The notes beneath the pieces are model-generated. The model saw only the letters and a program-made list of their open reading frames with translations, was not told where the DNA came from and did not search any database. A stretch of 64,000 nt of DNA from Xanthomonas sp. AM6 (GTDB taxonomy: Bacteria; Pseudomonadota; Gammaproteobacteria; Xanthomonadales; Xanthomonadaceae), in NCBI RefSeq assembly GCF_025665335.1, contig NZ_CP106869.1, positions 708,501 to 772,500 on the forward strand. Reading direction: 5' to 3'. A program made the translations under genes and the position numbers. Positions 36,747 through 52,879 of the stretch are shown here, in pieces (within the stretch, counting starts at the first letter, position 1; each line of letters opens with the position of its first letter).

Positions 36747-37514
36747 TCACGGCGCTGTCGCGGTCTCGACGACGGTGCCGTTCTCGTACACGGTGAGCTG
36801 GCGCGTGCCTGCCTTGCGCGTGCCTGCCCGCGCCGCCGGTGCGAACACGAAGCGCAGGTCGCGTTCCTCGGCAAAGAAGCGGGTCGGCGCTTCGGCGCGC
36901 AGGGTCACGGCCAGCGTGCCGGCGCTGAGCTTCAGGTGGTCGCCTTCCACGACCACGCGGATGTCGCCGACGCGCTGGCCGCGGTAGTCGCCGGCGTAGC
37001 GGGCCAGCACTTCGGGTGCCAGGGTCAGCCGCGTGGCGGGCGGTACGTACGCCGCCGCCGCGTGCGCATAGCTGTAGATGCGGCGCATGCGCCATTGGCC
37101 ATCGACCGACTGCCAGAGGTTGGTGAACTCGGCCTGCCCGTCCAGGCGTTCGGGTTCGCCCTTGCGCTGCACGTGGAAGCGGTGGGTGCCCGACAGCAGC
37201 GCGAAGCCGCCGGCCAGCGGATGGAACTGCACGCTGCCGGCGACCGCTTCGCGGCGCAGGTGCATCGCCGGGTCGGCGCAGGGGCCATCGCGCAGGGAAT
37301 GCAGTACCGCGGCCTTGGTCGCGGTCAGGCCGGTCCTGTCGTGATAGAACTCCACGTCGTCGGTGAGCAGCTCGCCCATCGTGCCCATGTCGCAGGCGTT
37401 GTAGGCCTGCCAGTAGCGCGTATCGGCGGCGCGCACCGCCGCTTCGTCGTCGGCCGCGGCCGCGCCGAAGCTCAGGCCCAGCAACGCGCACAGCGCAAAA
37501 TGGCGAACGGGCAT
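36747..37514 (-). CDS. Exported NTF2-like (DUF4440/SnoaL-type) protein
   Basis: A 255-residue protein with signal peptide (residues 1-21, cleavage after GAAA). An NTF2-like cone domain follows at about 22-130 (YWQAYNACDMGTMGELLTDDVEFYHD), typical of DUF4440. The C-terminal 110 residues form a second beta domain (LTLAPEVLARYAGDYRG), as seen in serine beta-lactamase-like lipocalin tails. The function of such exported NTF2 proteins is generally unknown; small-molecule binding or isomerase activity is possible. Translation starts at MPVRHFAL, which gives the clean signal peptide. Confidence 0.82.
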   Translation of the reverse strand: MPVRHFALCALLGLSFGAAAADDEAAVRAADTRYWQAYNACDMGTMGELLTDDVEFYHDRTGLTATKAAVLHSLRDGPCADPAMHLRREAVAGSVQFHPLAGGFALLSGTHRFHVQRKGEPERLDGQAEFTNLWQSVDGQWRMRRIYSYAHAAAAYVPPATRLTLAPEVLARYAGDYRGQRVGDIRVVVEGDHLKLSAGTLAVTLRAEAPTRFFAEERDLRFVFAPAARAGTRKAGTRQLTVYENGTVVETATAP

Positions 37515-37931
37515 GGCGGACTCCTGCAGCAGGACCGCGATTGCACTCCAGTGCCGCGCGCCTGCCGCGTGCAACAAGTCATGGGCACGGATGGGCCGGC
37601 GTCGGGCGGTCGCGGTGAAGGCTGCGCGGCGGCCACAGTGCGCCGGAGTGCAGCGGTGAAGGCCGGCGTCGCCAAGGTGTGCGACAGCCGTAAACGCGAG
37701 GGTGCCGGGAGCGCTGCGCGGCCCAGCTGCGATCGCAGGCGCGCCGCACGCCGGCGCTGGCGTTGCGCAATGCGGTTACCATGTCCTGCGCCAGGGGGCG
37801 GCGTCGCGTGGCCTGCATGCGGCCACATGTCGCGAAGACGACGGACGATCGTGCATTCGCGCGCAGGTGCGTCGGTTGTGCAATCGTCGCATACTGGCCC
37901 CGCAGGGGTGCGAGGGGAGGAGCGGTTGGCG
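37515..37931. other. Gene-free 417-bp stretch before the second kinase gene
   Basis: No convincing gene, repeat or dyad is visible. It should hold the promoters of the divergent NTF2-like gene and histidine kinase gene. The kinase frame stays open upstream to an ATG at 37827, which remains an alternative start. Confidence 0.5.
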
Positions 37932-39329
37932 GTGCTGACGCAAGGCGGTGGGACGTTCAAACGATTGCTGCACGGCCCGGCCAGGTGGCTGCGTGCGGTG
38001 CCGATCGCCGATCCGGTGGATCTGCGCAATGCGCCGATGTTCCAGGTGGTGCTGTTGCTGTTCGGGACCTTGCCGGTCGCGGCGTGGCTGTATCGCGCGA
38101 TCGCGGTGCCGGATGCGTGGCGTCCCGGCGAACTGACCAGCCTGGCGTTGAGCGTGCTGTTCAGCGCGGTCGCGCTGCTGGGCGTGGTGCTGATCCGTTT
38201 CGGCCGGTTCCGCTGGGCGGCCTACCAGACGCTGTGCGTGTTCGCGATCTCGGTGCTGGCCAGCTACGCCGCCAGCGGATTCGGCGGGCAACGCTTCGAG
38301 CAGCCGGTGCTGGTGGTGCCGATGGCGATCGCCGCGCTGGCGGTGGGGCGGCCGGCGTTGTGGATGATGTTCGCCGCGGTGCTGCTGTCGTTCGCGCTCG
38401 GAACGTACGTGGACCTGGGCAACGGCAAGCCGCGGGACTACATCGGCGATGCCGTCATCAGCGGCGTCATCTTCCTGCTGATCGCGGTGGTGCTGGACCG
38501 CACCTCGGCCGCGTTGCGGCAGAGCCTGCGCGAGGCGCAGGCGCGCGCCGAGCAGCTGGGCATCGCGCACGAGTCGCTGCGGCGCGAAGTGCAGGAGCGG
38601 CAGCGGATCGAAGAGCAGCTGGTGAACGCCAAGAAGGTGGAGGCGGTGGCGCGGCTCGCCTCCGGCCTCAACCACGATTTCAACCACCTGCTGAGTCTGG
38701 TGCTGGGCTACGTGCGCCAGGGACGCCGCGCCAGCGATGCGCAGGCGGTCGGCGCGGCGTTCGATGGCGTTGAAGCGGCGGCCAGGCGCGCCACCGCGCT
38801 CAGCGCGAAGCTGCTCAGCTTCAGCCGCCAGGACGAGAGCCATGCCGAGGCGCTGGATCTCGGCGAACTGGTGGCGACGCTGCAGCCGCTGCTGAAGCAG
38901 GCGCTCAAGCCCGGCATCGCGCTCGAGGTGCAGGTGCCGCCCGGGCTGCAGGTGCATTTCGACCGGCAGCAGCTGGAGTTGATCCTGCTCAACCTGGTCG
39001 CCAACGCCGACGATGCGATGCAGCACGGCGGCACGGTGACCCTGCACGGGCGGCGCGTCGGCGGCGAGGCCTGGCTGCAGTGCCGCGATACCGGCCCGGG
39101 CATTCCCGCGGCCCTGCGCGAAAAGATCTTCGAGCCGTTCTTCACCACCAAGCCGGTCGGCCACGGCACCGGGCTCGGCCTGGCGATGGCCAACGGGCTG
39201 ATGCAGCGGCATGGCGCGCGCATCTGGGTCGACGCCGAGACCGGCGCCGGCGCCGCGTTCGTGCTGAGCTTTCCGCACGGGCAGGCGCAGCCGCCTGCGC
39301 TGGCGGACGCGAAAGGCGTGGAGGGCTAG
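37932..39329 (+). CDS. Integral-membrane sensor histidine kinase
   Basis: A 465-residue kinase whose N-terminal half is five or six closely spaced hydrophobic helices (about residues 35-190) without a large periplasmic domain. A short coiled coil (about 195-235) follows, then the HisKA-type box with His248 (GLNHDFNHLL), and an ATPase domain with NLVANADDAM, DTGPGIP and GTGLGLAMANG. GTG is chosen as start because GGGGAGGAG lies 9 bases upstream; an ATG at 37827 is possible. The partner response regulator follows after 72 bp. Membrane-embedded sensors of this style often detect quinones, lipids or membrane state; the signal is unknown. Confidence 0.88.
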   Translation: MLTQGGGTFKRLLHGPARWLRAVPIADPVDLRNAPMFQVVLLLFGTLPVAAWLYRAIAVPDAWRPGELTSLALSVLFSAVALLGVVLIRFGRFRWAAYQTLCVFAISVLASYAASGFGGQRFEQPVLVVPMAIAALAVGRPALWMMFAAVLLSFALGTYVDLGNGKPRDYIGDAVISGVIFLLIAVVLDRTSAALRQSLREAQARAEQLGIAHESLRREVQERQRIEEQLVNAKKVEAVARLASGLNHDFNHLLSLVLGYVRQGRRASDAQAVGAAFDGVEAAARRATALSAKLLSFSRQDESHAEALDLGELVATLQPLLKQALKPGIALEVQVPPGLQVHFDRQQLELILLNLVANADDAMQHGGTVTLHGRRVGGEAWLQCRDTGPGIPAALREKIFEPFFTTKPVGHGTGLGLAMANGLMQRHGARIWVDAETGAGAAFVLSFPHGQAQPPALADAKGVEG

Positions 39330-39401
39330 CCGCGTGGCGTGCGCGTGCCGCATGCAGTGCGCGCCGTGCGCGTGGCTGCCGCCGTTCGGGACGTGCCGGC
39401 G

Positions 39402-40115
39402 ATGAGCGCGTCGCCGGGGCTGGTGCTGGCCGGGGTGCGGATCGCGGTGGTGGAGGACGATCCGGAACTGCGCGCGATCGTCGTCGACGAGCTGCGCCAC
39501 GAAGGCGCACGGGTGCTGGGGTTCGGCAGCGCCGAGGCCTTGTACCGGCACCTGCTGGGCGATACCTGCGAGCTGGTGGTACTGGATGTCGGGCTGCCGG
39601 GCGAGGACGGCTATTCGGTGGCGCGCTATCTGCGGCAGATCGTGCCGCAGGCAGGCATCGTGATGCTCACCGGCCGCGGCGCGAACACCGACATGACCCG
39701 CGGCCTGATGCAGGGCGCGGACCTGTACCTGGTCAAGCCGCTGGACGTGGAGCTGCTGATCGCCGCGCTGGCCAACCTGCGCCGGCGCCTGCAGCCGGCG
39801 GCGCCGTCCGCGTCGCCGGCCGTGCAGGACTGGCGGCTGAGCGACGACGGCTGGACGCTGTTCGCCCCGGGCGCGCGCACGCTGGCGCTGACCGAAGCCG
39901 AACGCGGCCTGCTGAAGGCGCTGTTCGCGCAACGCGGCGCGCCGGTGGACCGCGACACGCTGATCGCCGCGGTCACCGATGCGCCGTGGGATTTCGATCC
40001 GCACCGCCTGGAGGTGCTGGTGCACCGGCTGCGCGCGCGGGTGACCGCCGCCACCGCGGCGACGCTGCCGCTGCGCGCCGTGCGCGGGCAGGGGTATCTG
40101 CTGGGCGAGGCGTAG
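39402..40115 (+). CDS. OmpR-family response regulator (degenerate winged helix)
   Basis: A 237-residue regulator. Receiver domain at about 10-125: acidic pair Glu18-Asp19-Asp20, phosphoacceptor Asp62 (LDVGLPGEDG), switch Thr (MLTGRG) and Lys (LVKPLD). The C-terminal domain (about 135-235) is a winged helix recognisable from VLVHRLRARV and the terminal LRAVRGQGYLLGEA. It likely pairs with the histidine kinase just upstream. Target genes are not evident; no box like that of the first two-component system is seen here. Confidence 0.9.
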   Translation: MSASPGLVLAGVRIAVVEDDPELRAIVVDELRHEGARVLGFGSAEALYRHLLGDTCELVVLDVGLPGEDGYSVARYLRQIVPQAGIVMLTGRGANTDMTRGLMQGADLYLVKPLDVELLIAALANLRRRLQPAAPSASPAVQDWRLSDDGWTLFAPGARTLALTEAERGLLKALFAQRGAPVDRDTLIAAVTDAPWDFDPHRLEVLVHRLRARVTAATAATLPLRAVRGQGYLLGEA

Positions 40116-40729
40116 GCCCGCCGACCCGATCGGAGTAGGCCGCGCCGTGGTCGGCGCATGTGCGGCCGGCGGGCGAAGGGGCGAAGGCCCGCATCCTCCA
40201 GGCGACCGAACGCCGCCGACCGGTGGGCGCCCAAGCGTGGCTTTTCGAAGCGCCGTGTTCGGCGTCCCGGCGGCCGCGCGCCTTGGACCGGCGGCCCGCC
40301 TGCCGCGGCGCACCGCACCACCAACCAGGCGCCGGCATGGCGCCGCGCCGGCGCGCCATCGCGTCAAACATCCCTTGATATCCCGCATTCGCGCATGGAC
40401 CGCGGCCCCGAGGCTGCGCGATCGGTAGACAGATTGCGGGTTTCGCCGTGCGCACCGGCGTCCCTCCGCTCGTCACAGTCCGTCCACGGGCGGCGTCCCA
40501 TTGCCATTGCGGCATGCGTCTCGCGGCAGGTGTGAGGAAGTGAGAGGGGGCGCGAACAGCTGCTACTGACTGCCTGCGCCTCCCTGCGCAGAATCCGCGC
40601 CACCACACCGGCAGGCCCTGCCTGCGCGTTCGGAGTGGGTTCCGATCCCGATCGTCAGCGCGCCCCGCGGCCTAGGCCTGGGGCGCCGGTTCGTGGGTCC
40701 GGTTTGAATGCTTGGGGAGAAAGAGGCAA
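40116..40729. other. Gene-free 614-bp leader before the giant surface-protein gene
   Basis: No convincing gene on either strand. It must hold the promoter of the three-gene surface locus. CAGAAT near 40589 is a conceivable -10, but no matching -35 stands out. The size of the region leaves room for extensive regulation. Confidence 0.45.
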
Positions 40730-43700
40730 ATGACTGATCTGATGCGCGGCAGCCGTGCGGCTGCGTTGCGGGCGTGGGCGCGTGTCGCCCGCGGCGACCA
40801 CCGAGCCACGGCGTCGTCGGGGCGAAGCCTGCGGCTGATGATGGCCATCTTGCTGCTGGCCGCGCCTGCGTTGGCGGCCGCCGCGGACCTGCAGATCACC
40901 AACCTGTCCGACACCGGCTACGATCCCACGCCGGCCGGGGGCAGCGTGGTCTACAGCGTCACCGTCGAGAACAGCGCCGCCGACACGGTCAACAACGCGG
41001 TGGTGATCTTCGATCTGCCCGCCGGCGCCCAGGCCGGCGCGCCGCTGCCGGCCACCTGCAGCGTGGCCGCCGGCAATGCGCAGCGCATCGAGTGCCGGGT
41101 CGGCACCCTGGTCGGCACCTTCTCCTCCAACGGCGCGCCGGTGACCTTCCAGTTGCCGGTGAGCACGGTCGGCCTGGCCCCGGGCACGATCGAGATCCGC
41201 GGCGCGATCGGCGTGGAAACCGGCCTGCCGGCGGCGAGCACGCCGATCGCCTCGCTGGCCGATGCCGATGCGTTCTTCGCCGGCGACAGCAACGCGGCCA
41301 ACAACCGCCGCCTGGAAGCGACCACGCTGGAATCGGCGGGCGACCTGAGCGTGGAGAAGACCGCCACGCCGAACCCCGTCGTCGCCGGCGCCGAGGTCAC
41401 CTACACCGTCACCGTGCGCAATGCCGGGCCCAGCGCCTCGGCCGGCTTCAGCGTGATCGACACGCTGCCGGCCGCGGTGCAGTACGTGGCCAACAGCTTC
41501 AGCGGCAGCGGCTGGACCTTCAACAGCGGCAGCATGACCGCCACCCACGCCGGCGCGCTGGCCAACGGCGGCAGCAGCAGCTTCACCTTCCGCGCCCGCG
41601 TCACCGCCGCCAGCGGCAACATCATCAACACCGCGCGGGTGGAAGCCGGCGGCACGCCCGATCCGCTGCCCGACAACAACACCGGCAGCGTGACCACCAC
41701 GGTCAGCGCTGGCGCCGACCTGGCGCTGAGCAAGAGCGTCAACCCCTCGCCGGCGATCTCCGGCCAGCCGGTCACCTTCAACATCCAGGTGCGCAACCAG
41801 GGCCCGAGCGCCGCGGTCAATCCGCGTTTCGTGGACAACCTGCCGACCGGCTTCCTGGCCACCGGCGGCACCGCGCCGGCCGGCTGGACCTGCACCAACA
41901 GCAACGGCAACGCCACCCGCACCTGCGTGCTGAACGGCAGCCTGGCGGTCGGCGCCGTGGCCGATTTCACCATCGAGAGCACGGTGCCGGCGTCCGGCAC
42001 CAACAGCAGCGGCGACGTCACCAACAGCGCCACCGCCAGCGCCGACACCCCGGATGCGAACAACGCCGACAACACCGGCAGCACCACCTTCACCGTGCTC
42101 GCCGACGGCGCCGACCTGTCGATGAACAAGACCAAGACGCCGGCGCTGGTGCCGGTGTGGAGCGGCATCGGCAGCGATCTGGACAGCCGCATGACCAGCA
42201 CCATCGTCGTGCGCAACATGGGCCCGCGCCCGGCGACCGGCCAGGTGCAGACGGTGGATACGCTGGCGACCGGCGAAGAACTGCTGCAGCCGGACGGCAG
42301 CGTGGCGCAGCCGGGCGTGGCGTTCGCCGCCGGCGCGTGGACCTGCGTGGTCGACCAGGCCTACAGCGGCGCCAGCGTGCAGCACGTGACCTGCGACCTG
42401 GGCGCCGGTTCGCTGCCGTTGGCGGTGGGCGCGCAGGCGCCGACCCTGCAGCTGCTGACGCGTGCGCGCAGTTCCTCGGCCAATCTGCTCAACAACGCCT
42501 GTACCGGCGGCTCCGGCGGCTCGATCGAGCCGCTGACCGGCAACGGCATCGACCGCGATCCGGAAACCGACAACGACTGCTCCGGCGCGGGCACCCGCAC
42601 CACCGACGAGCGCGCCGACCTGTCCATCGCCAAGCGGACCAATGGCGCCGGCGACGGCGACAACGTGCTGGCGGCCAACCAGGACACGCTCAGCTACACG
42701 CTGACCGTCACCAACAACGGCCCGGACAGCACCACCGGCGTGGTGGTCAACGACACCGTTCCCGGTTTCGTCAACGGCCGCACCCAGATCAGCGTGACCA
42801 CCACCCCGGCCGGCTGGATCTGCACGATCAACGGCGCCTCGGTGGTCTGCCGCTCCGGCACCACCGCGCTGGCCAACGGCGCCACCGCGCAGATCGTCAT
42901 CCAGGTCCAGCGCGCGCTGTTCGACAGCTTCAACCAGGCCGCCGGCACCTGCGGCGGCACCGCCATCAGCGGCGCGTTCTGCAACACCGCCGGCGTCGGC
43001 ATCGATGCGGCCGTGGCCGGTTCGGTGGGCGAGCTCAACGGCAACAACAACCAGGCCTCGGACTGGATCCGCATCGCGCGCGTGGCCAACGTCGCCACCA
43101 CCGCCAAGACCATCTCCTCGGGCACGCCCGGCCGCGCCGGCGTCAACACCACCTACGTGATGTCCTACATCAACCGCGGCCCGTCGACGGTGCCCGGGGT
43201 GATCTTCCGCGACGTGTTCACCCTGCCGGCCAACGATTCGGGCTTCGTGCTGGTGTCCGCGCAGCGCACCGGCGCCGGAACCCGCACCTGTACCGCCACC
43301 GCCGGCGCCGGGGTGACCGTCACCGTCGACGCGGGCGGCACCTCCTACGCCAACCCGACCGGCGCGCCGGCGCAGGTCACCGTGCAGTGCCCGGCGCTGC
43401 CCTCGCTCACCAACGAGCAGACCGAAACCCTGCAGGTGGTGATCCGGCCCAACGTCAACAGCGGCAACACCGGCCGCCAGTTCGACAACACCGCCGACTT
43501 CGTGGTGGACCTCGATGGCGACGGCACGGGCGACCCGACCGCGGGCACCGATGGCGACGGCAACACCTACGACTTCAACACCGACACCAGCGACGACAGC
43601 AAGAGCGCGCAGCTGCCGTTCGAGGCCGGCCAGGTCGACCTGATCACCAACAAGGTGGACACCGGCTTCACCGGCGGCGTGGATCCGCTCGGCTTCGACG

Positions 43701-46700
43701 CGACCAATCCTGCCGCGAACCTGATCACCTACCGGATCACGATCCGCAACAACGGCCCGTCGGTGGCCACCGACGTGCGCCTGGCCGACACCTTCACCCC
43801 GCCGTCCGGCCGCACCGTCACCTTCATCGGCGCCTCGGCCACGCCCACCGGCACCTTCGACCCGGCCGCCTGTTCGGTGACCTCCGGCAGCAACCCGACC
43901 GTGGGCGCGGTGCAGGTGCTGAACTGCCTGATGCCTGGCATCGGCTTCAGCAACAACGTCGCCGGCGTGGTCGCGTCCGGCCAGACCAGCACGCTGTACC
44001 TGCGCTACCGCTACGACACCCCGCCCGGCGCGGCCGGCGACACGGTCAGCAACCTGGCCCAGGCCACGTCCGCCGAGACAGACAGCAACACCGCCAACAA
44101 CGGCGCCAGCCAGGAAACCACGATCCGCGCCTCGGCCGACGTGGGCGTGAGCAAGCACGTGATCACCGCCACGCCCGATGCCGATCCGGATGTGGCGCTG
44201 CCGGCCAACGCCACGTCGGTGGGCCTGCGCCAGCCGTTCTTCTACGTCATCGACGGCATCAACAACGGCCCCGGCGCGAGCCTGTCGCGCGACCGCAGCG
44301 GCAGCAGCCCGCTCAACGGCACCGGCACCGTGGTCAGCGACACGCTGCCCGCCGGGCTGGTGGTCGTCGGCCAGGTGACCTGGCAGAAGAAGGGCCCGAT
44401 CCCGGGCGGCGGCGGTGGCGAGGTGCCCAACGGCACCGGCAACTGCACCCAGGCCTCGGCCACGCTGACCTGCAACCTCGGCGACGTCACCGTCGGCGGC
44501 AAGCTGCGCATCGTGGTGCCGGTGCGCTGGGATACCTACCCGGGCGCGTCGGCGATCAACAACACCGCGACCATCACCACCGAGCAGGTCGATCGCGTCC
44601 CGCCGAACAACACCTCCACCGTGCCGATCCTGGTCACGCGGGCGTCGCTGGCCGGCACCGTGTTCGAGGACCGCGACCGCGCCGGCGCCAACGGCGGCGT
44701 CCGCCAGGGCGGCGAACCGGCCATCGCCGGCGTCACCATCGTGCTGACCGGCACCGATGCCTACGGCAATGCGGTCAACCGCAGCACCACCACCGCGGCC
44801 GACGGCAGCTACAGCTTCGACAACCTGTCGGCCGCCGGCGCGGGCGGCTACACGCTGACCCAGACCCAGCCGGCCGGCTATCGCAACGGCCCGGTGGATC
44901 CGCCGGTCGCCGGCGCCAGCGCGCCGTCGCTGGGCGGCACCTATGCCGCCGGCAGCCCCAACTCCAGCTACACCGCGATCCCGGTCGGCGCGACCGATGC
45001 GGCGGTGCGTTACGACTTCCCGGAAGTGCGCCGCCCCAGCCTGTCCGGCCGGGTCTACGCCGACCTGAACTTCAACAACGTGCGCGACGGCGGCGACCCG
45101 GCGATCGCCGGCGCCACCGTGGAACTGCTCAACGCCGTCACCGGCGCGGTGCTGGCCACCACCAATACCGACGGCAACGGCGTCTACCGCTTCGACGACC
45201 TGGATCCGACCCTGACCTACAGCGTGCGCGAGCCGCTGCCGGCCGGGCAGTACAGCAACCGTCCCAGCGCGATCAATCCCGGCCAGATCGGCGGCGCGGC
45301 GTGCGCGCCGGGCACCTGCGTGGCCGGCACCGCGGTGGCCGCCCCCGGCGGCCCGGATGCGGCCACCACCGATCGCATCTCGCAGATCCAGCTGGACGCG
45401 GGCCTGGACGGCACCGAGTTCAACTTCGGCGAGAACCCCAGCGGCAGCGCGATCCAGGGACGGGTGTGGCGCGACGACGACAACGACGGCGTGATCGACC
45501 CGACCGAGACCGGCCTGGCCGACGTGGACGTGGTGCTGACCGGCACCGACCAGAACGGCCAGGCGGTCAACCTGACCACCAAGACCGACGCGACCGGCAA
45601 CTACAGCTTCATCGGCCTGCTGCCGGGCACCTACACGGTGACCGAACCGACCCAGCCGACCGGCACCCTCAACGGCAAGACCGTGCCCGGCGACAAGGGC
45701 GGCACCGCCACCGACGTGGCCACCACGCCGTCGGCGATCGCCACCATCGTGCTCGGCGCCAACCAGCAGGGCCAGCACTACGACTTCGGCGAAGTGCAGG
45801 CGGCCTCGCTGTCCGGCCGCGTCTACTACGACAACGACGACAACGGCGTGGTCGGCAGCGACGAGACCGGCATCGGCAACGTGCGCGTGGTGCTGACCGG
45901 CACCGACGACCTCGGCGCCGCGGTGCAGCTGACCGTGCAGACCGACGCGCAGGGCAACTACCGCTTCGAGAACCTGCGTCCGGGCACCTACACGGTGACC
46001 GAACCGGAGCAGCCGGCCGACACCCGCAACGGCATCACCACCGCGGGCACCGTCGGCGGCGCCACGCGCGGCGTGGCGACCCCGCGCGAAACCGTGCCGT
46101 CGGCGATTTCGGCGGTGGTCCTGGCCCCGGGCGCGCAGTCGATCGACAACAACTTCGGCGAGATCGCCAACACCCCGGACCTGGTCGTCAGCAAGATCGC
46201 CGACCCGGTCAAGTTCACCGTCAACAACACCGCCACCTACACCATCAGCGTGCGCAACATCGGCCCGCGTCCGACCGCCGGCGTGTACCAGGTGCAGGAC
46301 CGCCTGCCGCCGGGCGTGACCCTGGCGGCGCTGCCCACCGGCAGCGGCTGGACCTGCGCCGGCGCGGTCGGTGCCGACCGCTTCAGCTGCGACGCCAGCA
46401 CGCTGATCGCGCCCGGGCAGACCGCCAGCGACCGCATCCAGGTGCAGGTCGCGGTGGGCGCGGCCGCGGCCACCGGCAACCCGGTCAACAACGCGGTGCT
46501 GGTGCAGGGCGGCGGCGAAGACGCCTCGCACGGCCCGACCCCGGCCGAGCGCGGCGCGTTCGACGGCGACGTGACCCAGCTGCCGGTGTGCGATCCGGCG
46601 ATCATCCAGAACGCCTGCCGCCTGCCGACGCAGGTGCAGCTGGCGGCCTCGGTGACGGGCACGGTCTGGTTCGACGTCGGCAACGACGACACCCTGCTCG

Positions 46701-48475
46701 ACGGCGGCGATCGCCGCCTGCAGAACTGGATCGTCGAACTGGTCGATCCGACCAGCGGCCAGGTGGTCAGGACCACGCTCAGCGCCGCCGACGGCAGCTA
46801 CCGCTTCGGCGACGTGATCCCCGGGCAGAAGTGGCACATCCGCTTCCGCGATCCGAGCTCCGGGGTGATCTGGGCGTTCCCGGTCAGCGGCGAGACCGCT
46901 GCCGGCGCCGCCGCCCCGTGCGCGGCCGACGCGGCGATCAGCAACGGCAGCGCCAGTTCGTGCCGGGTCAGCGACGGCGGCGTCAGCCAGCTGGAAGTGG
47001 TGCTCAAGGCCGGCGAGAACCTGCCGCAGCAGAGCCTGCCGGTGGATCCGTCGGGCGTGGTCTACGACGCGGTCACCCGCGACCCGGTGCCCGGTGCGAT
47101 CGTCACCCTGGCCCCGGTCGGCGTCTGCGCCGGCTACGACCCGGCCACCAGCCTGCTCAACACCGCGGCCGGCGGCTACCGCATCAACGGCAACGCGGTG
47201 TCGATGACCGTCGGCAACGACGGCTACTACCAGTTCCTGTTCGGCCCGGCGGCGCCGGCGCGCTGCGAGTTCGAGCTGACGGTGACCCCGCCGGGCGGCT
47301 ACGTGTTCGTCTCCACGCTGATCCCGGCCGAAGGCAACTCGCTGTCGCCGCCCGGCGCGGTGGGCAGCAACTACCAGGTGCAGCCCAACGCGCTGGCGCC
47401 GACCGGTCCGGTCGGCACCGCGACCCAGTACTACCTGCGGCTGTTCGCCGGGTCGGCCACCGCCGGCATCGTCCACAACCACATTCCGCTGGACACCGCG
47501 GTGGCCACCGGACTGGCCATCACCAAGACCGGCGACCGCCAGACCGCCGAAGTGGGCGACACCGTGCAATACACCATCACCATCCGCCAGACCGCCGGCA
47601 ATCCGTTGCAGATGGTCAACGTGGTCGATCGCCTGCCGCGCGGCTTCACCTACATCGAAGGCACCGCGCGCGCCAACGGCGTGGCCGTGGCAGAACCGCT
47701 GGGCAAGCCCGGCCCGACGCTGGGCTTCAGCGCCGGCCCGATCCAGGTCGGCCAGCAGATCGCGCTGACCTACCGCGTCCGCGTCGGCGTCGGCGCCCAG
47801 CAGGGCGACGGCATCAACCGCGCCCAGGCCTATGGCTGCTCGATCGCCGGCGGCTGCGTGGATCCGGTGTCGCTGCAGCCGCGCTCCGGCGCGCTGCCGT
47901 CCAACCAGGCGCAGTACCGCGTGCGCGTCACCGGCGGCGTGTTCACCGAGGAGGGTTGTGTGCTGGGCAAGGTATTCGTGGATTGCAACGTCAACCACGT
48001 GCAGGACCGCGAGGAGATCGGCATTCCCGGCGTGCGCCTGTACTTCGAGGACGGCACCTGGGTGATCAGCGATTCGGAAGGCAAGTACAGCTACTGCGGC
48101 CTGCCGCCGCAGAGCCACACGCTGAAGGTCGACGCCAGCACGCTGCCGCAGGGCGCGCGCCTGACCACCAGCAGTAACCGCAACCTGGGCGACGCCGACA
48201 GCCTGTTCATCGATCTCAAGAACGGCGAGCTGCATCGCGCCGACTTCATCGAGGGCAGCTGTTCCAACCCGGTGCTGGAGCAGGTCAAGGCGCGGCGCAC
48301 GCAGGGCGAGGTGCGCGCACCGGAGACCGAGACCGGCAAGGCGCCGCTGCGCTTCAGCAGCAAGCCGGCGCGCGCGCCGCAGCAGGCCACCGACTCGGCG
48401 GCGCAGTCGCCGATCGTCAAGCCACGCGGTACGCCGCCGCCCGATGTCACCGTTCCTGCGGAGGTGCAGCCATGA
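40730..48475 (+). CDS. Giant exported DUF11/SdrD B-like repeat protein
   Basis: A 2581-residue exported protein. A long N-terminal region ends in a hydrophobic core (about residues 38-52, MMAILLLAAPALAAAA), an extended signal peptide. About eight DUF11-type domains follow (each opening like ADLSxxK and containing RNxGPS), then four SdrD/Cna-B-like domains (about 1305-1810; each with xGRVYxDxNxNG and GTYTVTEP), a ninth DUF11, two variant B domains, a tenth DUF11 and a Cys-bearing B domain before a Pro/Lys-rich tail. A DxDGDGxGD loop near codon 930 looks like a Ca2+ site. Gram-positive Sdr proteins use such rods as adhesive stalks; no LPXTG or Gram-negative type V domain is present. Coupled by ATGA overlap to the barrel gene. 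Export route is unknown. Confidence 0.88.
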   Translation: MTDLMRGSRAAALRAWARVARGDHRATASSGRSLRLMMAILLLAAPALAAAADLQITNLSDTGYDPTPAGGSVVYSVTVENSAADTVNNAVVIFDLPAGAQAGAPLPATCSVAAGNAQRIECRVGTLVGTFSSNGAPVTFQLPVSTVGLAPGTIEIRGAIGVETGLPAASTPIASLADADAFFAGDSNAANNRRLEATTLESAGDLSVEKTATPNPVVAGAEVTYTVTVRNAGPSASAGFSVIDTLPAAVQYVANSFSGSGWTFNSGSMTATHAGALANGGSSSFTFRARVTAASGNIINTARVEAGGTPDPLPDNNTGSVTTTVSAGADLALSKSVNPSPAISGQPVTFNIQVRNQGPSAAVNPRFVDNLPTGFLATGGTAPAGWTCTNSNGNATRTCVLNGSLAVGAVADFTIESTVPASGTNSSGDVTNSATASADTPDANNADNTGSTTFTVLADGADLSMNKTKTPALVPVWSGIGSDLDSRMTSTIVVRNMGPRPATGQVQTVDTLATGEELLQPDGSVAQPGVAFAAGAWTCVVDQAYSGASVQHVTCDLGAGSLPLAVGAQAPTLQLLTRARSSSANLLNNACTGGSGGSIEPLTGNGIDRDPETDNDCSGAGTRTTDERADLSIAKRTNGAGDGDNVLAANQDTLSYTLTVTNNGPDSTTGVVVNDTVPGFVNGRTQISVTTTPAGWICTINGASVVCRSGTTALANGATAQIVIQVQRALFDSFNQAAGTCGGTAISGAFCNTAGVGIDAAVAGSVGELNGNNNQASDWIRIARVANVATTAKTISSGTPGRAGVNTTYVMSYINRGPSTVPGVIFRDVFTLPANDSGFVLVSAQRTGAGTRTCTATAGAGVTVTVDAGGTSYANPTGAPAQVTVQCPALPSLTNEQTETLQVVIRPNVNSGNTGRQFDNTADFVVDLDGDGTGDPTAGTDGDGNTYDFNTDTSDDSKSAQLPFEAGQVDLITNKVDTGFTGGVDPLGFDATNPAANLITYRITIRNNGPSVATDVRLADTFTPPSGRTVTFIGASATPTGTFDPAACSVTSGSNPTVGAVQVLNCLMPGIGFSNNVAGVVASGQTSTLYLRYRYDTPPGAAGDTVSNLAQATSAETDSNTANNGASQETTIRASADVGVSKHVITATPDADPDVALPANATSVGLRQPFFYVIDGINNGPGASLSRDRSGSSPLNGTGTVVSDTLPAGLVVVGQVTWQKKGPIPGGGGGEVPNGTGNCTQASATLTCNLGDVTVGGKLRIVVPVRWDTYPGASAINNTATITTEQVDRVPPNNTSTVPILVTRASLAGTVFEDRDRAGANGGVRQGGEPAIAGVTIVLTGTDAYGNAVNRSTTTAADGSYSFDNLSAAGAGGYTLTQTQPAGYRNGPVDPPVAGASAPSLGGTYAAGSPNSSYTAIPVGATDAAVRYDFPEVRRPSLSGRVYADLNFNNVRDGGDPAIAGATVELLNAVTGAVLATTNTDGNGVYRFDDLDPTLTYSVREPLPAGQYSNRPSAINPGQIGGAACAPGTCVAGTAVAAPGGPDAATTDRISQIQLDAGLDGTEFNFGENPSGSAIQGRVWRDDDNDGVIDPTETGLADVDVVLTGTDQNGQAVNLTTKTDATGNYSFIGLLPGTYTVTEPTQPTGTLNGKTVPGDKGGTATDVATTPSAIATIVLGANQQGQHYDFGEVQAASLSGRVYYDNDDNGVVGSDETGIGNVRVVLTGTDDLGAAVQLTVQTDAQGNYRFENLRPGTYTVTEPEQPADTRNGITTAGTVGGATRGVATPRETVPSAISAVVLAPGAQSIDNNFGEIANTPDLVVSKIADPVKFTVNNTATYTISVRNIGPRPTAGVYQVQDRLPPGVTLAALPTGSGWTCAGAVGADRFSCDASTLIAPGQTASDRIQVQVAVGAAAATGNPVNNAVLVQGGGEDASHGPTPAERGAFDGDVTQLPVCDPAIIQNACRLPTQVQLAASVTGTVWFDVGNDDTLLDGGDRRLQNWIVELVDPTSGQVVRTTLSAADGSYRFGDVIPGQKWHIRFRDPSSGVIWAFPVSGETAAGAAAPCAADAAISNGSASSCRVSDGGVSQLEVVLKAGENLPQQSLPVDPSGVVYDAVTRDPVPGAIVTLAPVGVCAGYDPATSLLNTAAGGYRINGNAVSMTVGNDGYYQFLFGPAAPARCEFELTVTPPGGYVFVSTLIPAEGNSLSPPGAVGSNYQVQPNALAPTGPVGTATQYYLRLFAGSATAGIVHNHIPLDTAVATGLAITKTGDRQTAEVGDTVQYTITIRQTAGNPLQMVNVVDRLPRGFTYIEGTARANGVAVAEPLGKPGPTLGFSAGPIQVGQQIALTYRVRVGVGAQQGDGINRAQAYGCSIAGGCVDPVSLQPRSGALPSNQAQYRVRVTGGVFTEEGCVLGKVFVDCNVNHVQDREEIGIPGVRLYFEDGTWVISDSEGKYSYCGLPPQSHTLKVDASTLPQGARLTTSSNRNLGDADSLFIDLKNGELHRADFIEGSCSNPVLEQVKARRTQGEVRAPETETGKAPLRFSSKPARAPQQATDSAAQSPIVKPRGTPPPDVTVPAEVQP
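44640..46160 (+). repeat. Tandem SdrD B-like domain repeats inside the giant gene
   Basis: Four consecutive domain-coding units of about 350-400 bp. The third and fourth (about 45.44-45.79 and 45.80-46.16 kb) are the most alike and share blocks encoding VVLTGTD, GTYTVTEP and DxDNDGVxxxxETG. Conservation at DNA level makes unit gain or loss by recombination possible. Confidence 0.7.
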
Positions 48476-51400
48476 GCCGGCCCGTCACGACGCGCCGCCT
48501 GCCGCGGCTGACCCTGCTGGCCTGCGCCCTGGCCGCGCTGCCGGCGCTGGCCCAGCAGAGCGTCGGCAGCAGCCGCTTCACCCCGGTGCTGGGCGAGGCC
48601 GGCACGCTGTACCCGCGCACGCCGGGCAGCGCTGACGCCGCCGCGCAGACCCTGGCGCCGCGTTCGGGCTCGCTCGACGCGCGCGCCGGGCAGGGCATGG
48701 ACCAGGTGCAGGTCGAGGTCGACCGCGACGGCGCGCCGGCCGACGGCCAGAGCCCGGTGCACGTGACCGTGCGCCTGCTCGACGACGCCGGCAAGCCGCT
48801 GCAGGGCGAGCACTTCGCCACCATCGAGCACACCGGCGGACGCATCCTGCTGCCGGGTTCGCGTACCGACGAGCTGGGGCCGGGCGCGGCCGATGCCGAC
48901 AAGGTCACCCCCGGCGTGCAGTTGCCGGTGCGCGACGGCGTGGCCGAGTTCGACCTGCTGGCGCCGGACCAGCCGCAGGACGTGGTGCTGCGGGTCACCG
49001 CCGGCGGCCACAGCGCCGAGGGCACGATCGGCTTCGTGCCGGAAATGCGCGAGATGATCGCCACCGGCCTGATCGAGGGCGTGGTCAATTTCCGCCGCCG
49101 CGACAACAGCGGGCTGATCGCCCCGGTCGACCATGACGACGTGTTCGAGCGCGACATCCGCCGCTGGGAGAAGCAGTTCAACAACGGCAAGGCCAACGCC
49201 TCGGCGCGCACCGCGTTCTTCGTCAAGGGCCGGATCAAGGGCGAGTACCTGCTCACCGCCGCCTACGACTCGGACAAGGAAGTGCGCGGGCGCCTGCTGC
49301 GCGACATCCAGCCGGAAGAGTTCTACCCGGTGTACGGCGACTCCTCGCTGCGCGGCTTCGACGCGCGTTCGGCCGAGCGCCTGTACGTGCGCGTGGACAA
49401 CCGCCGCAGCTACCTGCTGTACGGCGATTTCCAGACCGGCGACACGCTGGCCACCGCGACCGGCATCGGCGCGCGCAGCAGCATGCCGCAGCGCAGCCTG
49501 GGCACCTACAACCGCACCGCCACCGGCCTGGGCTGGCACTACGAGAACGAGCGCGTGCGCACCAACGTGTTCGCCATCCAGGACTCGCTGCGCCAGGTGA
49601 TCGAGGAATTCGCCAGCCAGGGCAGCGGCCCGTACGCATTGCGCAACAACGCGGTGCTGGAAGGCAGCGAGCGCGTGGAAGTGGTGGTGCGCGACCGCAA
49701 CCAGCCCTCGCGCATCGTCTCGGTGCAGCCGCTGGCGCGCTTGGTGGACTACAGCTTCGAGCCGTTCTCCGGGCGCATCCTGCTCAACCAGTTCCTGTCC
49801 GCCTACGACAGCAACCTCAACCCGGTCTCGCTGCGCATCACCTACGAACTGGACCAGGGCACCGAGCGCTTCTGGGTGTACGGCGCCGACGGCCAGCTGC
49901 GGCTGACCAATGCGCTGGAAGTCGGCGCGTCAGTGGTGGACGACCGCAACCCGTTCGCCGAGTTCCGCATGGGCAGCGCCAACGCCGGCTACCGCTTCGG
50001 GCCCAACACGGCGCTGGTGGCGGAATTCGCGCGCACCCAGAGCGAGATCAACACCAACTCGATCAACCAGATCGCCACACCGGGCCTGCAGGACCTCAGC
50101 GGCCGCGTCGAAGGCGATGCCTGGCGCGTGGAGTTCGGCCACGACGGCGACAAGCTCGACGCCAACCTGTTCGCCGCGCGCACCGATCCGGCGTTCAACA
50201 ACCCGGCCTCGCCGCTGTTCGGCGGGCGCGGCGAGTACAACGCCAAGCTCGAGTACCACCTGACCGAACGCGTGGACCTGTACGTCGAAGGCCTGCGCAG
50301 CGAGGACCGCAATCCGGATGGCGGCAAGCGCGATGCGGGCGGCGCCGGCGTGCGCGTGGGCGCCACCGAGAAGCTGACCCTGGACTTCGGCGTGCGCTCG
50401 ATCCGCGAGACGGTCGGCGCGTACTCGCCGTGGTCCACCGACACCGGCTACGGCAACAGCGGCGGCCTCACCGGCGGCTTCGCCACCGGCGCCGGCGGCG
50501 GCGCGCTCGGCTATGGCCAGCAACCGCTGGACCCGCTGACCGGCCTGCCGGTGATCGGCTCCAGCAGCGCGGTCACCGGCACCGCCAGCGACCTGCCGAT
50601 CGGCACGCGGCTGGAATCGGACAGCGCCCGCATCGGTGCCGGCTACCGCGTCGGCACCAAGCTGTCGCTGGGCGCCGAGTACGAGCAGAGCGTGTCCGGC
50701 GAGGACCGCAACCGTGTCGCCGCCGGCGTCGACTACCAGGTGCTGGAACGCAGCCGCCTGTACGGCCGCTACGAGAAGCAGACCGGCCTGACCAGCGCCT
50801 ACGGCATCACCACCACCGACCGCGAGGCCGATGCGCTGGTGTTCGGCATCGACAGCAGCTACGTGCGCGATACCCAGGCGTTCTCCGAGTACCGCATGCG
50901 CGATGCGATCAGCGGCCGCGATGTGCAGGCCGCCTCGGGCATCCGCAACACCTGGGACGTGCGCGAAGGCCTGCGCCTGAGCAGCTCCGCCGAACACGTC
51001 AAGATCTACGACGGCAACACCGGCGATGCCACCGGCCTGGCGCTGGCGCTGGACTACAGCGCCAACCCGCTGTGGCGCGGCTCGGTGAGGGTGGAGCACC
51101 GCATCAGCGGCGACGTCGCCGAGACCGAGACCGACGAGGCCTTCGACACCACGCTGGTGCAGTTCATGCTGGCGCGCAAGCTCAGCCGCGACTGGACCCT
51201 GCTCGGCCGCAACTACCTGCTGCAGACCAACTACGCCGCCCGCGGCGACGTGCTGCAGAACCGTTTCCAGCTGGGCGTGGCCTACCGCGATACCGACACC
51301 AACCGGATCAACGCGCTGGCCCGCTACGAGTACAAGCTGGAACGCGACGAGAGCGGGCTGACCCTGCTCGACGGGCAGGCGGTGGACGGCAGCAGCCAGG

Positions 51401-51849
51401 ACATCAGCAGCCGCGCGCACATCGTCTCCACCCATGCCGACTGGCATCCGTCGCGGCCGTGGTGGCTGACCGGGCGCGTGGCCGGCAAGTGGCAGCAGGA
51501 CCGCTTCGCCTATGCCGACGGCGGCCGCGTGGACAGCCGCTTCCATGCGGTGCTGGTGTCCGCGCGCGTGGTCTACGACATCACCGAGAACTGGGACATC
51601 GGCGTGCTCGGCTCCACCTTCCGTGGCCAGCTCGGTTCCAACCAGTACGCCTACGGCCTGGAAGTGGGCCGGCTGCTGCGCCAGAACCTGTGGCTGTCGG
51701 CCGGCTACAACTGGTCCGGCTTCGAGGGCGACCGCGACCTGTCCGGCTACGAGTACACCCAGCAGGGCGCGTTCCTGCGCCTGCGCTTCAAATTCGACGA
51801 AGACCTGTTCCGCCGGGATCCGGTCCGTTACCGCGACCCGGCGCGCTGA
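48472..51849 (+). CDS. Large predicted outer-membrane beta-barrel with N-terminal Ig-like domain
   Basis: An 1125-residue protein. Signal peptide (about residues 1-28, cleavage after LALA or ALA-Q), then a 40-residue linker, an immunoglobulin-like domain (about 75-190, VHVTVRLLDDAGKPLQG) and, from about residue 195 on, long runs of alternating polar and hydrophobic strands rich in Tyr, Arg and Asp ending LRLRFKF, as in outer-membrane barrels. The 14 residues after that Phe are unusual. Many barrels are exporters or anchors for a neighbouring exoprotein, and this gene is coupled to the giant repeat gene by an ATGA overlap. No TonB box, POTRA or plug domain is apparent. I do not recognise a named family. 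Confidence 0.8.
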   Translation: MSRPVTTRRLPRLTLLACALAALPALAQQSVGSSRFTPVLGEAGTLYPRTPGSADAAAQTLAPRSGSLDARAGQGMDQVQVEVDRDGAPADGQSPVHVTVRLLDDAGKPLQGEHFATIEHTGGRILLPGSRTDELGPGAADADKVTPGVQLPVRDGVAEFDLLAPDQPQDVVLRVTAGGHSAEGTIGFVPEMREMIATGLIEGVVNFRRRDNSGLIAPVDHDDVFERDIRRWEKQFNNGKANASARTAFFVKGRIKGEYLLTAAYDSDKEVRGRLLRDIQPEEFYPVYGDSSLRGFDARSAERLYVRVDNRRSYLLYGDFQTGDTLATATGIGARSSMPQRSLGTYNRTATGLGWHYENERVRTNVFAIQDSLRQVIEEFASQGSGPYALRNNAVLEGSERVEVVVRDRNQPSRIVSVQPLARLVDYSFEPFSGRILLNQFLSAYDSNLNPVSLRITYELDQGTERFWVYGADGQLRLTNALEVGASVVDDRNPFAEFRMGSANAGYRFGPNTALVAEFARTQSEINTNSINQIATPGLQDLSGRVEGDAWRVEFGHDGDKLDANLFAARTDPAFNNPASPLFGGRGEYNAKLEYHLTERVDLYVEGLRSEDRNPDGGKRDAGGAGVRVGATEKLTLDFGVRSIRETVGAYSPWSTDTGYGNSGGLTGGFATGAGGGALGYGQQPLDPLTGLPVIGSSSAVTGTASDLPIGTRLESDSARIGAGYRVGTKLSLGAEYEQSVSGEDRNRVAAGVDYQVLERSRLYGRYEKQTGLTSAYGITTTDREADALVFGIDSSYVRDTQAFSEYRMRDAISGRDVQAASGIRNTWDVREGLRLSSSAEHVKIYDGNTGDATGLALALDYSANPLWRGSVRVEHRISGDVAETETDEAFDTTLVQFMLARKLSRDWTLLGRNYLLQTNYAARGDVLQNRFQLGVAYRDTDTNRINALARYEYKLERDESGLTLLDGQAVDGSSQDISSRAHIVSTHADWHPSRPWWLTGRVAGKWQQDRFAYADGGRVDSRFHAVLVSARVVYDITENWDIGVLGSTFRGQLGSNQYAYGLEVGRLLRQNLWLSAGYNWSGFEGDRDLSGYEYTQQGAFLRLRFKFDEDLFRRDPVRYRDPAR

Positions 51850-51856
51850 GGAATCC

Positions 51857-52879
51857 ATGATGACCACGACCCATACCCGCTTCGTCCTGTCCCGCACCGT
51901 CGCCGCCGCCCTGCTGCTGGGCGCCTGTGCCGCCGGCAACGCGCAGACCCAGTTGCTGCCGCAGCAGCAGCGCATCAGCGACGAGGCCATCGCCGCCGAC
52001 CTGCAGGGCTACCAGTCCGTGCAGGACCGCATCCAGGCGCTCAACGACGGCGGCCGCCCGGTACGCGACTACGCCTTGTCCAAGGCGCAGTGCTGGCTGG
52101 ACGTGTCCTTCCACGAGTACACCCGCAACGACCGCAGCGCGTTCCCGCAGGGCGCGCTCGGCGAGTCGGAGAAGCTGGTGCAGCTGATGGAGCAGCGCGC
52201 CACCACGATCCCGACCAAGACCCCGCTGGTCAACGACGCCAAGTACCTGCGCGACGACCTGTGGCAGCGCCTGCGCGCGCTGCACGGCAGCGCCGGCTTC
52301 AGCTGCGCGCAGCAGGCGGTGGCCTGCGGCGAGGTCGAGCTGGTGCATGCCGGCAACGAGTTCAACCAGCAGCAGTGGCGCCATTCCAAGCCGTACATCC
52401 AGATCGCCGAGGACATGGTCAACGACGCCGAGGCGCTGGCCCGGCAGTGCGGCGGCCCGGAGCGTCCGGACACGCCGGCGGCGGCGCCGATCCCGCTGGT
52501 GGCCAACGTGCTGTTCGAGTTCGACCGCGACGGCTACAAGGACATCCGCACCCATTCGCTGGAGAGCCTGGACCGCGCGCTGGCGCGCATCGCCGAAGAG
52601 AAGCTGACCTTACAGAAGGTGGAGCTGGTCGGCCACGCCGACCGCATGGACGGCCGCGGCCACGACTACAACCAGGGCCTGTCCGAGCGCCGCGCGCGCA
52701 CCGTGCGCGAGCTGCTGATCGGCCGCGGCGTGCCCGCCGACCGCATCCGCTACGAGTACCGCGGCGACAGCCAACAGGTCCAGCAATGCACCGGCGTGAA
52801 GCCGCGCGCGGCGCTGCTGGAATGCCTGCTGCCGAACCGCCGCGTCGAAGTGCGCCTGGTGGTCGGCCGCGGCGACTGA
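51857..52879 (+). CDS. OmpA-family protein, third gene of the surface locus
   Basis: A 340-residue protein. A hydrophobic export signal contains LLLGAC (lipobox-like, Cys at about residue 23), so it may be an outer-membrane lipoprotein. The middle (about 30-200) is helical and of unknown fold; the C-terminal OmpA domain (about 215-335) has the peptidoglycan-binding features VLFEFDRDGYKDI, VELVGHADRMDG and the paired Asp/Arg of NxxLSxRRA (here NQGLSERRA). Two Cys near the end may form a disulfide. GAGGAA precedes the start, 7 bp after the barrel gene. It would tie the outer-membrane complex to the cell wall. Confidence 0.88.
   Translation: MMTTTHTRFVLSRTVAAALLLGACAAGNAQTQLLPQQQRISDEAIAADLQGYQSVQDRIQALNDGGRPVRDYALSKAQCWLDVSFHEYTRNDRSAFPQGALGESEKLVQLMEQRATTIPTKTPLVNDAKYLRDDLWQRLRALHGSAGFSCAQQAVACGEVELVHAGNEFNQQQWRHSKPYIQIAEDMVNDAEALARQCGGPERPDTPAAAPIPLVANVLFEFDRDGYKDIRTHSLESLDRALARIAEEKLTLQKVELVGHADRMDGRGHDYNQGLSERRARTVRELLIGRGVPADRIRYEYRGDSQQVQQCTGVKPRAALLECLLPNRRVEVRLVVGRGD

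Follow-up and report, generated by a model that had tools for sequence, protein, structure and literature searches.

A candidate outer-membrane export and anchoring unit for a giant adhesin-like rod in Xanthomonas

How giant rods of immunoglobulin (Ig)-like domains leave Gram-negative cells when no type I, type V or chaperone-usher genes accompany them is a question to which we know of no general answer. It is raised by a 64,000-nucleotide stretch of the Xanthomonas sp. AM6 genome (contig NZ_CP106869.1, positions 708,501 to 772,500), called the window below, which belongs to a genome of one 4.9-Mb contig. Three consecutive genes on its forward strand encode a 2581-residue exported rod (40730..48475, ATG to stop), an 1125-residue barrel protein (48472..51849) whose ATG overlaps the rod stop codon (ATGA), and a 340-residue OmpA-domain protein (51857..52879) that starts 7 bp past the barrel stop. 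An original prediction, made from the sequence letters, had proposed that the barrel exports or holds the rod and that the OmpA protein fixes the complex to peptidoglycan. The three genes form a conserved unit, and we lean towards reading it as outer-membrane machinery that exports and anchors a single giant adhesin-like rod, in which a chaperone-free, usher-like pore would be combined with an OmpA tie to peptidoglycan.

One element of this arrangement is already in print. In the text available from PMC12617251, the DUF11 domain is renamed CLIPPER following a crystal structure that shows a Lys-Asn isopeptide bond; the domain comes from a fibrillar adhesin of Acinetobacter whose end is formed by an OmpA-like anchor. 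OmpA-like domains are likewise presented, in the available part of PMC10952558, as adhesin anchors found predominantly in Proteobacteria. The original prediction had counted OmpA anchoring as part of an arrangement without a match, and this claim is corrected in view of the two papers. The words ‘barrel’, ‘secretion’ and ‘outer membrane’ have no occurrence in the main text of PMC12617251, and an exporter is not discussed there. A barrel accompanying DUF11 rods is not described among the matches listed from open-licence PubMed Central text, and the combined system of barrel, rod and OmpA protein seems to be nameless. Type 11 secretion was also considered; in the available text, the DUF11 count for PMC12282271 is mostly DUF1194.

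To survey conservation of the trio, a mixed barrel alignment was run against named genomes. Of 277 matches the 80 best, which are biased to close relatives, gave 79 loci in Xanthomonas, Stenotrophomonas, Pseudoxanthomonas, Lysobacter, Luteimonas, several Burkholderiales and two Rhodocyclaceae; the nearest barrel among these 80 is that of Xanthomonas bonasiae (95%). Loci L054, L089 and L112 belong to the plant-beneficial Stenotrophomonas rhizophila. The rod tail, the barrel and the OmpA gene are all present in 68 of the 79 loci. Their order is rod-barrel-OmpA in 67 of the 68 complete loci, the exception being L116 (barrel-OmpA-rod), and among the other 11 loci six end at a contig edge 5′ of the barrel and two just 3′ of it. 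That the trio is a real unit is well supported, because gene order is conserved and the parts are naturally fused.

These fusions take several forms. Rod and barrel are a single chain of 3.7-4.2 thousand residues, with OmpA encoded separately, in Stenotrophomonas humi (L068), Lysobacter selenitireducens (L118, on the same contig as L135) and three further members of the family (L132-L134). The five form one clade of the barrel tree (support 100), and the branches closest to it are split systems (parent forks 83 and 85). Another rod-barrel fusion, the sixth (L152), stands elsewhere on a long branch, and fusion has arisen at least twice. From the tail to a motif in the barrel Ig domain there are 150-198 residues in the five chains, with no signal-peptide-like hydrophobic stretch between them. 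The OmpA domain is equally mobile. In the branch L040-L047 and L170 (type II) the rod carries its own C-terminal OmpA domain and the barrel follows directly; the Pfam domain is above cut-off in seven of eight type II relatives tested and just under it in L041, with L043 outside the scan. OmpA domains occupy the barrel N-terminus beside a separate rod in L142-L145 (four of four above cut-off) and in Eleftheria terrae, L136 is a single DUF11-tail-barrel-OmpA chain, and in L159 and L171 OmpA lies between tail and barrel. Tail-barrel proteins of about 2000 residues adjoin separate DUF11 open reading frames (ORFs) in many of L153-L168, and in Acinetobacter haemolyticus plasmid p4 (L275) such a fusion lies beside separate DUF11 ORFs with OmpA 3 bp on; these ORFs could be fibre subunits. 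The further loci, 20 in each of three sets, were hand-picked for variety, so the frequencies of these architectures are not estimates. Fusion of the three parts in different orders among relatives shows that they belong to one system. OmpA domains bind peptidoglycan, and because fused OmpA domains do so the rod C-terminus, both barrel termini and the OmpA domain should all lie on the periplasmic side.

The separate DUF11 ORFs near tail-barrel fusions include some of about 100-500 residues and larger ones of about 700-1160. Stenotrophomonas humi holds a fused copy (L068) and a split copy (L076) in one genome. In L101, L103/L037, L119 and L122 the barrel gene is broken into two frames, by decay or assembly error, and the second barrel piece of L119 continues from the barrel end directly into an OmpA domain. 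Long open frames that resembled a rod-barrel fusion in close relatives of the window were set aside as the out-of-frame openness of GC-rich DNA.

The rod begins with a putative Sec signal (residues 1-52, 40730..40885), a hydrophobic segment that ends in APALAAAA. Local profiles find ten DUF11 and six SdrD_B domains. Pfam finds nine DUF11 stretches (whole-protein E 1.3e-104) and six SdrD_B stretches (E 5.7e-66), counting each stretch that passes E <= 1 alone. The predicted ten or so DUF11 domains are thus recovered, and of seven predicted SdrD/Cna-B domains the seventh did not appear. Eight DUF11 domains come first (residues 53-1299, 40886..44626, by local profile), followed by four SdrD_B domains (1309-1810, 44654..46159), with two further DUF11 domains at 1817-1937 and 2261-2381 (local profile) and two further SdrD_B domains at 1977-2080 and 2413-2512; all six SdrD_B domains are found by local profile and Pfam. 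Pfam detects no known adhesive domain in the rod. A simple motif script places a Lys/Asp/Asn isopeptide-type triad in plain register in at least six of the ten DUF11 domains. LPXTG is absent from the rod sequence, as had been stated, and no C-terminal membrane segment or hydrophobic tail is visible by eye; a sortase-anchored Sdr protein was rejected on these two grounds.

The rod varies greatly among relatives, with ORFs from about 1,600 to more than 3,300 residues. Its best conserved part is the tail, composed of the last DUF11 and last SdrD_B domains (residues 2261-2512, 47510..48265), which we propose as a periplasmic dock and stopper. Across 63 rods, mean identity reaches 76% in residues 2326-2500, versus 50% in the best stretch of residues 1-2250, and this tail stretch is better matched than the best other stretch in 62 of the 63. 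Six tail cysteines form three coupled pairs, 2370/2376, 2410/2456 and 2419/2511. The last pair lies at the two ends of the last SdrD_B domain (47984..48262). Of 71 split rods 70 keep it, the exception being L119, where both residues are missing; it is lost in five of six fused rods, namely the clade of five, the sixth fusion, L152, keeping it. The pattern, which goes back to one evolutionary event, fits a disulphide-stapled stopper that would become dispensable on fusion. Cysteine hooks in HMW1 and CdrA offer a likeness. The local TAIL profile was built from 72 rods, using the last 330 residues of each; because two of these rods are fused and contributed barrel C-termini, it also matches the barrel (58 bits). 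The identity and cysteine counts are independent of this profile, except for trimming the tails of four added fused proteins.

The OmpA-domain protein carries, as predicted, a C-terminal PF00691 domain (52541..52792, E 1.3e-11), and its N-terminal domain has no name. Asp262 (52640-52642) and Arg279 (52691-52693), which we take to be the two residues that bind diaminopimelate, do not vary among 31 aligned sequences. Many residues of the N-terminal domain are invariant too, and this domain may grip the tail or the barrel. The NCBIfam matches of the protein, headed by TpgA and then E. coli OmpA and including PdsO, all fall below cut-off. A possible link to the X. albilineans OmpA gene XALc_0557 was also considered.

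The barrel protein opens with an Ig-like domain of the Big_1/invasin/intimin fold (residues 74-192, 48691..49047), in agreement with the original prediction. Pfam reports no barrel family above cut-off for the window protein, only sub-threshold matches of which Big_1 is the best, and NCBIfam gives no match. AlphaFold2 predicts about 36-38 long strands (pLDDT 70, moderate confidence); as in fimbrial ushers, strand six of the model is followed by a small inserted beta domain. The first six predicted strands span residues 241-371 (49192..49584), the inserted domain with its following strand, which aligns with the usher plug, residues 373-461 (49588..49854), and the remaining 30 or so strands residues 467-1106 (49870..51789). 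To our knowledge, a barrel of 36 or more strands would be one of the largest yet described in a single chain. All barrel types belong to a single family: comparison of type I with the pooled other types gives an HHalign probability of 100 (E 4e-133), and type I against type II alone an E of 8.5e-48.

Kinship to ushers is a prediction. In profile comparison, type I and the pooled other types both match the usher plug through the inserted domain better than any control does, with HHalign probabilities of 41% and 15%, and 64% with 17 type I rows. Up to nine type I-like rows (L038, L039, L146-L152) were present in the first profile of other types; without them the pooled plug score fell from 32.9 to 29.4. 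On structural re-alignment, FimD and PapC are among the best for the barrel. The barrel is possibly related to ushers, by descent or convergence, a kinship these comparisons partly support. The original claim that no named system matches accordingly stands for membership and less so for ancestry, where the plug match exceeds the controls. A viral structure search gave nothing useful.

We propose the following course of events, in which export, gating, stopper, force path and regulation are inferred. Rod, barrel and OmpA protein would each reach the periplasm by its own signal peptide, as read from sequence. The barrel is predicted to form a very wide outer-membrane pore, shut by the inserted plug domain. 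The conserved rod tail would dock at the periplasmic face of the barrel, the side indicated by the fusions, and remain there. The Ig-like domains would pass the pore, probably folded or folding on emergence. At about 4 nm each, the roughly 16 domains make a rod whose length greatly exceeds the width of the periplasm, and most of them should come to lie outside. Isopeptide triads could lock rod domains that fold in the periplasm, a difficulty that a pore wide enough for folded Ig domains would solve; folded passage is favoured because at least six of ten DUF11 domains carry such triads. The tail, its last domain stapled end to end by a disulphide, would be a stopper unable to follow. The OmpA protein, as the fusions and conserved binding residues suggest, would bind both the tail-barrel complex and peptidoglycan, so that the cell wall, rather than the membrane, takes the pull on the rod. 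The adjoining two-component system probably turns the trio on. Within the original proposal, the unit, the holding and the anchoring are well supported by conserved order and fusions, and we infer a probable export.

Several observations weigh against this proposal. Export and surface exposure of the rod are themselves conclusions drawn from sequence. The barrel model is only moderately confident, so that closure and strand number are tentative. The plug match, at HHalign probabilities of 15-64%, is no more than suggestive, and nine type II rows alone give no match (score 15.0; controls up to 16.5). A whole-barrel HHalign value of 95.5% for ushers was rejected as proof of kinship because TonB receptor controls score higher (96.3%, with the profile that held type I-like rows); without those rows the figures are 96.1% for TonB receptors versus 88.7% for ushers. 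Unrelated barrels also come near in Z on re-alignment (TOM40 13.6, VDAC 13.5). Foldseek's own ranking was discarded as usher evidence, as ushers are missing from the top 50 of both models, which include TonB, SusC, LptD, SlpA and SprA barrels; ushers appeared in the re-alignment only. Pfam Usher (PF00577) has no match at E up to 1 in 11 barrels (the window's and ten relatives). Loss of the Cys2419/Cys2511 pair is confined to one fused clade. Finally, two Massilia loci (L124, L125) lack an OmpA gene within some 10 kb on the downstream side, and an Ottowia locus (L120) has no upstream rod; its downstream DUF11 ORF runs off the contig, with OmpA possible beyond.

Other explanations account for parts of these data. 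The barrel might work like an autotransporter (type V), with an unfolded rod crossing it C-terminal hairpin first, the split form being a reversed two-partner secretion and the usher likeness a general one. The fused forms do follow the type Va order of N-terminal passenger then C-terminal barrel, intimin and invasin Ig-like rods leave through small type Ve barrels whose Ig domains the N-terminal domain here matches, and whole-barrel profiles do not favour ushers. The predicted barrel is, however, much larger than the 12 strands of autotransporters, the 11 barrels scanned show no autotransporter, POTRA or FhaC-type Pfam match, the plug match exceeds its controls, and the isopeptide-type triads, by the simple motif, suit folded passage better. 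We judge this explanation unlikely, though it deserves about a quarter of our belief. Less probable still is that a surface or receptor barrel is just the membrane mount for a rod exported by other means. A Nitratireductor relative is publicly annotated as a TonB-dependent receptor, and the genome encodes one SlipAM (type 11 secretion) protein unlinked to the trio; against this, Pfam recognises no exporter family in the eight flanking proteins, four of which have no Pfam match at all, a rod and barrel in one chain make another exporter hard to imagine, and the inserted domain is plug-like.

We give very little credence to a rod that never leaves the periplasm and serves there as a brace between outer membrane and wall. 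The fusions do place the rod tail and OmpA domain on the periplasmic side, but about 16 Ig-like domains would span several periplasm widths, the range of rod lengths in relatives is unlike that of a spacer, and DUF11 domains are the stalk domains of surface fibrils in the available text of PMC12617251. The export and anchoring unit set out above is the reading we prefer.

Its closest comparison is with chaperone-usher systems (FimD/PapC), which share an outer-membrane barrel and a substrate of Ig-like domains; the model of the window barrel tentatively adds a beta domain after strand six, where ushers insert their plug. Ushers have 24 strands, whereas the window barrel has about 36-38 predicted ones, and its rod is one chain and not a donor-strand polymer of subunits, with a tail that can be fused to the barrel and a dedicated OmpA anchor. 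A PapD-type chaperone (PF00345) is absent from the window's genome and from the eight flanking proteins, and no usher was found in the genome. The barrel is not filed as a chaperone-usher system because sequence family, chaperone and strand number were each tested and each differs. OmpA-anchored fibrillar adhesins share with the window rod a long stalk of tandem Ig-like domains. Acinetobacter silvestris B9T28_05395, in the available text of PMC12617251, pairs a DUF11 (CLIPPER) stalk with an OmpA-like anchor, and type II relatives have the same layout, with OmpA on the rod's own C-terminus. The window differs in its separate OmpA gene and dedicated barrel.

Type V systems resemble the fused relatives in having passenger then barrel, and the barrel protein in its invasin-type Ig domain. 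They differ in their 12- to 16-strand translocators, and the window has an inserted domain, no type V Pfam domains and a separate OmpA protein. SprA, the type IX translocon, is likewise a very large barrel (36 strands) and ranks 3-4 in Foldseek for the better model, but its TM-score is very low (0.21 by query length), there is no Pfam match, and the eight flanking proteins include no type IX gene. TpgA (partner of Ata) and PdsO are also OmpA-domain partners of surface proteins, in their case of a trimeric autotransporter and a sortase system. Type 11 secretion (SlipAM) differs in that the window barrel has no PF04575 match; the genome's single SlipAM gene lies at 1086584-1087459 of the contig, more than 300 kb from the trio.

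If this reading is right, a widespread dedicated barrel of usher ancestry would supply an exporter for Ig-domain rods, and ushers would prove able to dispense with a chaperone when their substrate is one chain. Through the natural fusions the proposed topology is directly testable. A bolder form, which we hold tentatively and think rather less than even, is a separate secretion type without a name: chaperone-free, usher-derived barrels of at least 36 strands would export pre-folded, isopeptide-locked Ig rods with a disulphide-stapled periplasmic stopper and an OmpA-peptidoglycan tie, rod, barrel and OmpA modules would recombine freely throughout Pseudomonadota and in at least one cyanobacterium, and many genomes would also assemble separate small DUF11 subunits.

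Directly 5′ of the rod, on the same strand, lie genes for a histidine kinase (HATPase_c) and an OmpR-type response regulator (36936..40115; the true kinase start is within the frame). A kinase and/or regulator resembling this pair occurs in nearby DNA of 31 of the 79 loci (kinase 23, regulator 19), although both are large families and some matches are perhaps unrelated. The regulator is mostly just 5′ of the rod and the kinase mostly 3′ of the OmpA gene (loci including L048-L112). The pair is probably a dedicated control of the trio. An antisense ORF over the rod (40655-48235, minus strand, 2526 residues) was rejected as a gene and is probably a mirror of rod codon bias in GC-rich DNA.

Barrel relatives were found in 18 of 60 genomes of close relatives, at least 90 of 198 genomes and at least 33 of 54 genera of the family, 54 of 369 genomes of the class (one by an Ig-domain-only match and one by a short weak match) and 65 of 398 genomes of the phylum (nine of the 65 by the Ig domain only); these survey draws overlap. 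Among 72,556 plasmid records 22 carry them, with Alphaproteobacteria and the cyanobacterium Synechococcus sp. NIES-970 represented among the hosts. On plasmid1 of the latter (L276), a 541-residue tail-like protein overlaps a 1543-residue barrel protein, which is followed by a 2018-residue DUF11 protein. Public records name barrel relatives variously ‘TonB-dependent receptor’, ‘OmpA family’ and ‘DUF11’. The first label is attached to the Nitratireductor relative (L278) and to plasmid matches H10, H15, H16 and H18 and is likely a misannotation; in Nitratireductor a DUF11 rod overlaps the barrel start.

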